NCBI GenBank assembly: GCA_001871075.1
Contig: MNUP01000022.1
Location: 1-6,037, forward strand
DNA from: Candidatus Desantisbacteria bacterium CG1_02_49_89
GTDB taxonomy: Bacteria; Desantisbacteria; UBA1551
DNA length: 6,037 bases
Reading direction: 5' to 3'
The position numbers and the translations under genes are program-made. Below the pieces are notes generated by a model. It was not told where the DNA came from and did no database searches. It was given only the letters and a program-made list of their open reading frames with translations. Shown here one piece after another: positions 2,791 through 5,444 of the stretch (position 1 is the stretch's first letter; each line of letters begins with the position of its first letter).

Positions 2791-3936
2791 TTAAGGTTTT
2801 ATCCTGTGCGCTTCTGTCGGTTTGAAGTCCGGCTCCACCTCCGGGTTTGCCCACGCGGTCTTGAAATACACAACTGCATCCTCAATTCTTTTTATGCCTT
2901 TGCCCAGCTTTATATCGATCTCCTTCAGGTCGTTCGGCCCAAGGCCCAGGTCGCGCGCGATCCTGAGGTAATTCTGGCAGTTCACAAAAGGCGGGCTGGG
3001 GTATTCTGCTGCCGGGTTGTGACCCATAAGAAAAGCACCTACCGCGTCCACCGCGACCGCGTTCTTCCCTACCACGATGACGCGCAACGCCTTCCTTTCA
3101 GCGCCCGGTATCCAGAAACCCTCCCCTCCCTCCATCCCGATGATCCCGTCTATCATCGCAAGGTTTATTGGGTTTGCCGCGTTTATGTCGTTGATGACCA
3201 TTGATATGTCGTGCCTTGAGAGGCCGTGCAGCATGCTCTTTGAGGTCCCCTCAGGGGCGTAAACGTCCCGGGGCGGCGATCCGAACTGATTTTTAAGCGT
3301 GAGCGTTATGCCGGCCGAGGAGTGCATCTTCATTTTCGCTACGGATATAAAAACATCCGCTTTCTCGATTTCCTTGTTAAGCCTGAGGCTTTTGAAATAA
3401 AGGCCTTCCCCGGGGACTGCGTACGTCTCGAAGTCCGTATGCGGAAACGGGTGGTTCAGGTCCAGGAGCCGGCATCCTTTTTTCGTAAGATCCTTCCAGC
3501 CCATATCCCTGAAGCAGTCGATCGTTGGGCTGGCGCCTGTCCCTTCCATTATCGTTATTTCGCTATCGGTTATTTTTCTTATGTGCTCTATAAGGGCGAT
3601 CGCCAGGTTAACATGAGTGGTTACGCCCCATTCCGCGGGCGTGTTGTCGCACAGGTTCGGCTTTATGGCGACAGCGTCCTTCGGTTTTATAACATCCCCC
3701 AGACCCCCTATCAGGCCTATCGCCTCGGCAACCGCGCGCCTTACTTCCTGCAGATCATAACTGCCGCATTTGACCACGGCGACTACAGGCGGGCCCAGCA
3801 GCCAGCCTTCCGTGTACCGGAACGACCTTGCGCCCGTTTTCAGGTTAAGGGGGATCGTCTCCTGCTCAAACGAACCAGCGTTGAAGCAGATAAGCAGTAT
3901 CAGCCCGATTAATGATGCTAAATGGCTTTTTTTCAT
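2791..3936 (-). CDS. Exported DUF362 domain protein (downstream paralogue)
   Basis: This is a 381-residue DUF362 (PF04015-type) protein; the family has no settled function that I can state. Residues 1-22 look like a signal peptide or membrane anchor: MKK, a hydrophobic stretch about 6-18, and a possible cleavage region near FNAGS. There is no proper lipobox. YTEGWLLGPP at 41-50 is shared with the neighbour. Family-like conserved segments follow: IKPNL at 91-95, GVTTH at 104-108, IMEGTG at 129-134, SVAKMKMHSSAGITLTLKNQ at 198-217, NDIN at 249-252, IDGIIGMEGGEG at 262-273 and GKNAVAVDAVG at 290-300. The Fe-S ferredoxin module carried by many DUF362 proteins is absent: no CxxCxxC appears. Cysteines C57 and C155 are conserved in the paralogue. 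The ATG at 3936 fits the signal peptide, but no clear Shine-Dalgarno site precedes it. Its upstream neighbour is a paralogue 102 bases away on the same strand, suggesting tandem duplication. Confidence 0.9.
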   Translation of the reverse strand: MKKSHLASLIGLILLICFNAGSFEQETIPLNLKTGARSFRYTEGWLLGPPVVAVVKCGSYDLQEVRRAVAEAIGLIGGLGDVIKPKDAVAIKPNLCDNTPAEWGVTTHVNLAIALIEHIRKITDSEITIMEGTGASPTIDCFRDMGWKDLTKKGCRLLDLNHPFPHTDFETYAVPGEGLYFKSLRLNKEIEKADVFISVAKMKMHSSAGITLTLKNQFGSPPRDVYAPEGTSKSMLHGLSRHDISMVINDINAANPINLAMIDGIIGMEGGEGFWIPGAERKALRVIVVGKNAVAVDAVGAFLMGHNPAAEYPSPPFVNCQNYLRIARDLGLGPNDLKEIDIKLGKGIKRIEDAVVYFKTAWANPEVEPDFKPTEAHRIKP

Positions 3937-3976
3937 TTAAATTCAAACCAAATTTATCTGTAATTAAAATAGGATA

Positions 3977-4038
3977 GGGATTCGGGTATGGGGATTAGGT
4001 TTAGGGTTAATCGCGTGGAATCGTGTGTAATCGTGTGG
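3977..4038. repeat. Short-word arrays between the DUF362 paralogues
   Basis: Two word families lie side by side. Positions 3977-4008 are GGGATTCGGG/GGGGATTAGG/TTTAGGG-like words. Positions 4009-4038 are three direct 10-base copies: AATCGCGTGG, AATCGTGTGT and AATCGTGTGG. The last copy touches the stop codon of the upstream DUF362 gene (4039-4041). The unit resembles the AATCCGTG word at 2589-2606 in the next gap. No promoter or terminator is obvious in this gap. Confidence 0.75.
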
Positions 4039-5199
4039 TTAAGGTTTCAATCTGCTGACTTTTTCCAGTTTGAATTCAGCCGGAATATCAGCCCTGGAAT
4101 AGGAAATACTGAAAGGGCTCGCGGCGTCCGAAAGCTTTCTTATCCCTTTTCCCAGCCTTATATCTATTTTTTTCAGATCCGTGGGCCCCAGGCCCAGGTC
4201 CCGCGCGATCCTCAGGTGATTCTCGGCGGCTTCAAAGGGCGGGTCGGGATAATCCGCTTCAGGATCATAGCCCATAAGAACGGTTCCTACCGCGTCTACC
4301 GCGACTGCGTTCTTCCCGATTATTATCAAGCCGGTGTTCTTTGCCCTTGCCGCGGGATTCCATAATCCGGCTCCCCCTTCAAGCCCTATTACCCCGTCCA
4401 CCACCGCAAGGTTTATCGGGTTACAGGCATTGATGTCGTTGATGGCGCAAGGCATGCTCCTCCAGGGATCATCCTTGTGCAGCTGCCATTTAGCCCTTTC
4501 CATGTTACCGTAAGCGTCCATGGGCACCGAACCGAACTGGTTTTTTACCGTGAGAGTAATACCCGCAAGCTCGTGGACCTTTAATTTCGCAACTGAAACA
4601 AAAACATCAATATCCTTGAAAGCCCTGTTGAACGTAAGCTCCCGGAATGCCAGGCCGCCTCCCGGGATCCTGCACACAACGAAAGTGGGGTAAGGAACAG
4701 GATGGTTCAGGTCCACCAGCCTGCAGTTCTTGTTCTTGCTTAATTCAACCCATCCCTGGTCTTTAAACGCGTCTGCTGTGTTGGCTCCGCCCGCCCCTTC
4801 CATTATCGTTATCTTGCCGCTGGTGATCTTCCTGAAGCAGTCGATCAGCGCGGAAACTACTGCGGGGTGCGTTGTCACCCCTGCTTCGCCGGAATGGTTC
4901 GTGGTAAGGTTGGGTTTTATGCCTATCCTGTCGCCGGATTTCACTACATCGTTCAACCCGCCTATCAGGCTTATTGCTTCTTCCACCGCTCTTTTTACTT
5001 CCGCGGCATCATAGTTGCTGCACTTCACTACCGCAACGACCGGCGGGCCGAGAAGCCAGCCTTCCGTATACGCGAAAGGGCGCAGGCCTTCTGAAATATC
5101 CTCTGCTTTTGTTTCCGGCGTTCTGCTGGCTTTAAACGCAAAAAATCCCGCGGCTGCGGCTATCAGTATCCCGATAACTACTAAATATTTCTTTTTTAT
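4039..5199 (-). CDS. DUF362 domain protein (upstream paralogue) with a non-canonical start
   Basis: This is a paralogue of the gene at 2791-3936. The only ordinary start codon in frame is GTG 5028, which gives 329 residues. The open frame, however, continues upstream to a TAA at 5206-5208. Those codons encode KKKYLVVIGILIAAAAGFFAF, which looks like a signal peptide or anchor, then a short linker and YTEGWLLGPPVVAVVK, identical over 16 residues to the neighbour. So I start it at ATA 5199 (386 residues, matching the neighbour's 381). ATC 5205 is the other candidate. A weak AGGA lies 11 bases before the ATA and five before the ATC. In the 386-residue numbering the DUF362 segments are IKPNL at 94-98, GVTTH at 107-111, IMEGAG at 132-137, SVAKLKVHELAGITLTVKNQ at 202-221, NDIN at 254-257, VDGVIGLEGGAG at 267-278 and GKNAVAVDAVG at 295-305. 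It has no Fe-S motif. Both paralogues end in R-[IL]-K-P. The function is unknown. Confidence 0.85.
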   Translation of the reverse strand: MKKKYLVVIGILIAAAAGFFAFKASRTPETKAEDISEGLRPFAYTEGWLLGPPVVAVVKCSNYDAAEVKRAVEEAISLIGGLNDVVKSGDRIGIKPNLTTNHSGEAGVTTHPAVVSALIDCFRKITSGKITIMEGAGGANTADAFKDQGWVELSKNKNCRLVDLNHPVPYPTFVVCRIPGGGLAFRELTFNRAFKDIDVFVSVAKLKVHELAGITLTVKNQFGSVPMDAYGNMERAKWQLHKDDPWRSMPCAINDINACNPINLAVVDGVIGLEGGAGLWNPAARAKNTGLIIIGKNAVAVDAVGTVLMGYDPEADYPDPPFEAAENHLRIARDLGLGPTDLKKIDIRLGKGIRKLSDAASPFSISYSRADIPAEFKLEKVSRLKP

Positions 5200-5231
5200 T
5201 GTGATTTATATCCTGCTGAAAATGGAGAATA

Positions 5232-5272
5232 GAAAATAGACCGTCCCGATGTTACATCGGGACTCTATTTTC
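5232..5272. repeat. Long palindrome with GTCCCGATG core between tRNA-Ser and DUF362
   Basis: The inner arms GTCCCGATG (5243-5251) and CATCGGGAC (5255-5263) pair perfectly around TTA. The outer arms GAAAATAGA (5232-5240) and TCTATTTTC (5264-5272) also pair perfectly, with a two-base CC bulge between the stems. On the minus strand it is followed by a pyrimidine- and T-rich stretch (TCTATTTTCTATTCTCC), so it could serve as a backup terminator for tRNA-Ser. It shares its right arm with the hairpin at 5267-5288, so both cannot form fully at once. Confidence 0.75.
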
Positions 5273-5288
5273 CCCGTGAGGGGAAAAT
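5267..5288 (-). terminator. Perfect 9-base hairpin directly behind tRNA-Ser
   Basis: ATTTTCCCC (5267-5275) and GGGGAAAAT (5280-5288) pair perfectly around the loop GTGA. The hairpin begins two bases beyond the tRNA discriminator base. Its position suggests a role in 3'-end formation or termination of the tRNA transcript. There is no uninterrupted T-run behind it, so this is a weak terminator call; it may instead protect or mark the 3' end for processing. Confidence 0.45.
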
Positions 5289-5289
5289 A

Positions 5290-5377
5290 CGGAGGGAGAG
5301 GGATTCGAACCCACGACTCGCTTTAGGCGAGTAATCGCTTTCGAGACGATCCCCTTCAACCACTCGGGCATCCCTCC
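5290..5377 (-). tRNA. tRNA-Ser, anticodon CGA
   Basis: An 88-base class II tRNA. The acceptor arms GGAGGGA and TCCCTCC pair perfectly. The D-stem is CCC/GGG with loop GAGTGGTTGAA. The anticodon stem ATCGT/GCGAT encloses loop CTCGAAA, giving anticodon CGA (5341-5343), which reads UCG. A long variable arm, ACTCGC-CTAAA-GCGAGT, and discriminator G73 (5290) are serine identity features. The T-loop is TTCGAAT. The T-stem GTGGG/CCCTC has a U50-U64 mismatch, which is unusual. CCA is not encoded, so it must be added after transcription. A near-consensus promoter lies about 250 bases upstream, and a perfect hairpin follows immediately downstream. Confidence 0.95.
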
Positions 5378-5390
5378 CGCCTCGACGGCG

Positions 5391-5409
5391 GGTCGCCGAA
5401 GTGGCGACC
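5391..5409. repeat. Perfect 7-base stem-loop just upstream of tRNA-Ser
   Basis: GGTCGCC (5391-5397) and GGCGACC (5403-5409) pair perfectly around GAAGT. It lies 14 bases before the tRNA 5' end on the transcribed strand. It shares the core CGCCGAAG with the palindromic element at 5445-5527, suggesting the two belong to related dispersed repeat families. It could also affect 5'-leader processing of the tRNA. Confidence 0.6.
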
Positions 5410-5444
5410 ATACCATCGTAGTTTTATATATCGCTTTAATTAGT

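Follow-up and report, generated by a model that had tools for sequence, protein, structure and literature searches.

A DUF362 gene with ATA at the position of its expected start codon, behind a tRNA-trailer repeat

Gene content of the window

The stretch of DNA analyzed here (the window) is one whole contig of 6037 bases from a 2.48 Mb draft genome that belongs to a sparsely sampled phylum. The draft comprises 150 contigs and is consistent with a metagenome bin. In the search set the phylum is represented by two genomes, namely this one (G000) and one relative from the same order (G001). The minus strand of the window carries a tRNA-Ser gene, two DUF362 genes (A and B), a SIS gene encoding a bacterial phosphoglucose-isomerase-like protein, a GHMP kinase gene consistent with ispE, and spoVG. 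A hicA toxin gene is found at the contig edge (5792-6025), and no antitoxin partner was seen in the window.

Gene A (4039-5199, minus strand, counted from an ATA codon to the stop) encodes an N-terminal hydrophobic signal or anchor followed by a DUF362 domain. Upstream of it on the same strand lies tRNA-Ser (CGA) (5290-5377). Gene B (2791-3936, minus strand) is a tandem paralogue with an ATG start, and its product of 381 aa is 53% identical to that of gene A.

The start region of gene A

The positions of the relevant codons on the minus strand were verified. A weak Shine-Dalgarno (SD)-like AGGA (5214-5211, -4.1 kcal/mol) is followed by an in-frame TAA (5208-5206), an ATC directly after it (5205-5203), and the ATA (5199-5197). 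The first standard start codon is a GTG (5028-5026), which lies inside the first conserved core strand (PVVAV/VKC) and has no SD. A first-pass annotation had claimed that no standard start exists between TAA 5208 and GTG 5028, and indeed 0 ATG, GTG or TTG codons occur there in frame. Starts in the other frames of the region are limited to ATG 5257 (one codon, then a stop), TTG 5141, and TTG 5036. A frameshift giving gene A an upstream ATG was ruled out, as none of these is usable.

In both protein and DNA alignments the ATA falls on ATG 3936 of gene B (ATA AAA AAG in gene A, ATG AAA AAA in gene B), in agreement with the earlier proposal that it occupies the place of an expected ATG. The same annotation considered ATC 5205 to be better spaced from the AGGA, which did not hold. 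The aligned spacing is 3 to the ATC and 9 to the ATA, the genome mode is 4-5, and spacings of 3 and 9 are about equally common in the genome (15 and 13 of 298). Judged from its sequence context, ATC 5205 is a possible alternative start. An SD as weak as the AGGA of gene A is found in one third of the ATG genes of this genome.

The codons ahead of GTG 5028 had also been read as coding, and two lines of evidence confirmed this. Under a codon model built from 610 long genes of this genome, the 59 codons from 5205 to 5029 scored +12.4 bits, compared to a wrong-frame mean of -20.5 (sd 15.4). This score was reached by 0.7% of wrong-frame controls and corresponds to the 41st percentile among true N-termini of this genome. 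Moreover, the block YTEGWLLGPPVVAVVKC (5020-5070, minus strand) is identical in gene B despite 10 codon differences, all of them synonymous and 8 of them upstream of GTG 5028. These 8 differences lie within the 14 conserved codons before the GTG, all at third positions, and the 8/8 synonymous pattern was matched in 0 of 20,000 neutral simulations. Therefore this N-terminal stretch evolved as protein. The 16 residues formerly described as shared with gene B are indeed identical (YTEGWLLGPPVVAVVK(C), 16-17 residues); only 14 of them, however, are upstream of GTG 5028, as V60 is the GTG itself and K61-C62 come after it. Read from the ATA, the protein has a lysine-rich start and then a hydrophobic segment with a peak 15-residue hydropathy of 2.77, similar to that of gene B (2.45). 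The N-terminus of gene A is coding, it has no standard start, and the ATA is homologous to the ATG of gene B.

The body of gene A

Gene A belongs to the DUF362 family (PF04015, Pfam clan CL0471 with DUF2088/LarA), which it matches far above the cut-off (E 1.2e-39, 136.8 bits, gathering score 24). The frame is open, with 0 internal stops and 0 frameshifts. In an alignment of 18 homologues, of which two are encoded in this genome and the others elsewhere, all 19 near-invariant columns (conserved at ≥ 90%) are kept in gene A. Its mean identity to outgroups is slightly higher than that of gene B (difference 0.016), and at sites where the two differ the outgroups agree with A in 44 cases and with B in 27. 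With all 19 columns kept, no other lesion, and a sequence not more derived than that of B, the body is undecayed and any loss must be recent. A long-dead gene is excluded, and a recent loss of the start is compatible with this healthy body. Gene A resembles recent start-loss pseudogenes in its one-base start difference and its intact adjoining relative, but differs from them in a body that shows no further lesions and no relaxed selection.

Unlike most of the DUF362 homologues aligned, A and B lack a C-terminal cysteine cluster (both have gaps at three Cys columns and at one Pro column), a feature outside the Pfam definition of PF04015. A further difference is the non-Tat N-terminal hydrophobic leader of A and B.

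Non-canonical starts in the genome and its relative

Start and ORF scans covered about 1.65 Mb of this genome and 984 confident ORFs. Frames with at least 40 coding codons upstream of the first standard start were found three times, and gene A is the only one of these not split by a stop. The others look like an IclR-type regulator gene in which a single TAA interrupts the frame and a gene for a repeat-rich surface-type protein that contains a single in-frame TAG, with types assigned by eye from the translations (the two loci are L140, about 3595-4455, and L143, about 5424-6725, minus strand). In both, the N-terminal part has its own start just upstream in the same frame. Since both have the appearance of normal genes interrupted by a stop (TAA or TAG), there is no hint of an alternative genetic code.

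A scan of the same DNA for ATT, ATA, ATC or CTG behind a strong SD returned one gene, infC. Use of non-canonical starts throughout the genome was thus rejected beyond infC for strong-SD sites. The scan sees only genes without nearby standard starts, and about 6% of ATG genes lack one in codons 2-58; weak-SD cases could thus escape it. In this genome (L166, contig C68 near 11124) the first standard start of infC does not occur before the 24th codon, and an apparent ATT start stands behind AAGGGGGTGA. In the relative (L165, G001 contig C95 near 6612) an apparent ATA start stands behind AAAGGGGGTGA. Both loci are on the minus strand and each is close behind a tRNA gene. Anti-SD pairing at the infC ATT of G000 is -14.3 kcal/mol, compared to a median of -5.8 for ATG genes and -4.1 for gene A. 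From these apparent starts, the lineage seems to tolerate AUU and AUA, with extreme anti-SD pairing where they are used. They would extend a pattern of other bacteria to a poorly sampled phylum.

In Staphylococcus aureus, infC, cvfC1, and ccpN have AUA or AUU starts with extended SD motifs, and the non-canonical sites tested at cvfC1, ccpN, and citZ are expressed at about 10% of the AUG level, with a maximum of 30% at one of them (PMC13009471). The citZ AUA is confined to one strain lineage (PMC13009471), a useful parallel for a recent change at gene A. Leaving GUG and UUG aside, three replacements of AUG were counted among 61,358 starts in 36 sets of related genomes, two by CUG and one by AUU (PMC5622118). 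Gene A shares with the infC, pcnB, and ccpN starts (AUU, AUA) the absence of a standard start, an AUA-type codon, and a selected frame. In contrast to them, it lacks a strong extended SD, having only AGGA at an aligned spacing of 9. The start of gene A is rare and instructive, and of a known kind; as one clear example, it allows one to ask how AUA starts come about and whether they can persist without a strong SD.

Origin of the ATA codon

Orthologues of gene A were sought in several collections. Two scans of GTDB-220 contigs and a search of viral contigs yielded no sequence similar enough to include the leader. There was no orthologue within the phylum (2 genomes), and among 386 genomes none was close enough for the leader, the best reaching 38% identity. 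These collections thus yielded no orthologue, and the ATG origin of the ATA is inferred from one paralogue, gene B.

The first-pass annotation had offered a throttling start, a recent mutation, and a base error as explanations. All three are kept here, ranked rather than fully separated: a genuine recent change that leaves a weak start comes first, a selected throttling start second, and a consensus error third. The balance tips slightly towards a recent ATG-to-ATA change: the gene is otherwise under selection, and a weak AUA start without compensation would be what remains. Gene A would then encode a genuine DUF362 protein that carries a signal or membrane anchor at its N-terminus and was functional until recently. 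Its original start at 5199-5197 would have become ATA by one transition, either in the sampled population or in the lineage. Any translation would start at the AUA with initiator tRNA and yield M-KKKYLVVIGILIAAAAGFFAF... at a strongly reduced rate. The weak AGGA and a leader consisting mostly of tRNA-Ser trailer repeat would account for the low rate. The change may be too recent for decay in the body, and the tandem paralogue B may cover the role of gene A. The direction and recency of the change, the residual AUA initiation, and the redundancy with B are what we infer. Several points count against a recent change: no orthologue or outgroup copy with an ATG here was found, ATC 5205 may be the start instead, the undamaged body also fits continued function from the AUA, and a consensus error would look identical.

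An old, maintained AUA (or AUC) that throttles gene A, as AUU and AUA may do at infC, is possible but doubtful. The purifying selection on the gene A body fits it, the apparent ATT and ATA starts of infC in G000 and G001 indicate that ribosomes of this lineage accept AUH starts, and AUA starts are known from S. aureus infC and ccpN (PMC13009471). It was ranked second because gene A does not have the strong extended SD that accompanies infC in G000 and G001 and the published non-canonical starts of S. aureus. Moreover, of the ATT, ATA, ATC and CTG sites scanned, infC alone had a strong SD, and the orthologue searches gave no copy in which the codon of gene A is conserved.

An assembly or consensus error, with G as the true base and ATG as the start, is less probable again. 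The start is one base away from a typical ATGAAAAAG and the sequence comes from a fragmented draft; however, with just 2 other disrupted genes among the confident ORFs, the consensus is not notably error-ridden, and nothing is known that would favour an error at this particular base. Translation from GTG 5028, giving a cytoplasmic protein without a leader, is highly improbable: although this is the first in-frame standard start and the one reported by standard-start ORF callers, it has no SD, it removes PVVAV of the first core strand (kept in 18/18 aligned homologues), leaderless homologues begin a few residues before the strand PVVAVVKC (MGKVKVAIVSC; MGKVKVAIVSCKSY), and the codons upstream are under protein-level selection. 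Standard gene callers would annotate gene A 57 codons short and miss the leader and first core strand.

A repeat element at tRNA 3' ends

Nearly the whole leader of gene A is a copy (type B) of a tRNA-3'-end repeat element (5216-5289, minus strand). It runs from the end of tRNA-Ser to 16 nt before the ATA, so that gene A has about 16 nt of upstream DNA of its own. The copy consists of a hairpin (5289-5266), the palindrome GTCCCGATGTAACATCGGGAC (5263-5243), and a GGTCTATT...TTTTCAG arm (5242-5216). In the DNA examined, 17 of 23 tRNA genes are followed by the repeat after 0-2 nt, and the tmRNA gene also has a copy behind it. All strong matches fall within a few hundred bases on the 3' side of a tRNA or tmRNA gene. 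The first hairpin varies in sequence with its pairing kept (at 8 of 9 pairs, both bases are changed in two or more of nine sequences). Next comes a long imperfect hairpin or, as at gene A, the palindrome with a single arm. Further copies are found at L073 (11153-11258), L106 (11248-11353), L123 (15191-15624), L147 (437-509), L153 (3058-3157), L155 (14459-14533), and L167. The first of these loci also holds a Group II intron (Rfam group-II-D1D4-4, L073:12577-12715). A covariance model of the element found 25 copies in this genome, 0 in G001, and 0 in 57 other genomes. No Rfam family matched the element in the window or in the three loci scanned.

The rtT repeats of Escherichia coli tyrT lie directly 3' of tRNA genes, and their second copies carry tRNA 3'-end fragments. 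Some second copies of the present element carry such fragments as well; unlike the tyrT repeats, it follows the majority of tRNA genes in this genome as well as the tmRNA gene. The element is either a small mobile element that targets tRNA genes or a lineage-specific tRNA trailer. It may be a more interesting feature than the start of gene A, and it merits separate study.

The same arrangement of the element precedes infC and a coaD-like gene. As the coaD-like gene keeps its ATG, the element does not itself force the loss of a start. No Sigma-70 promoter was found between tRNA-Ser and the ATA. The presence of the element suggests that transcription of gene A comes from tRNA-Ser read-through or from a promoter that the search did not recognise. 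A maintained AUA start without an extended SD, in which the leader is a mobile or amplified tRNA-trailer repeat and tRNA-Ser read-through permits a trickle of expression, is unlikely. Directly upstream of tRNA-Ser, a palindromic GTCGCCACTTCGGCGACCCGCCG..GAGGCGGG (5378-5411) is shared with another tRNA-associated repeat region (L155 near 14545).
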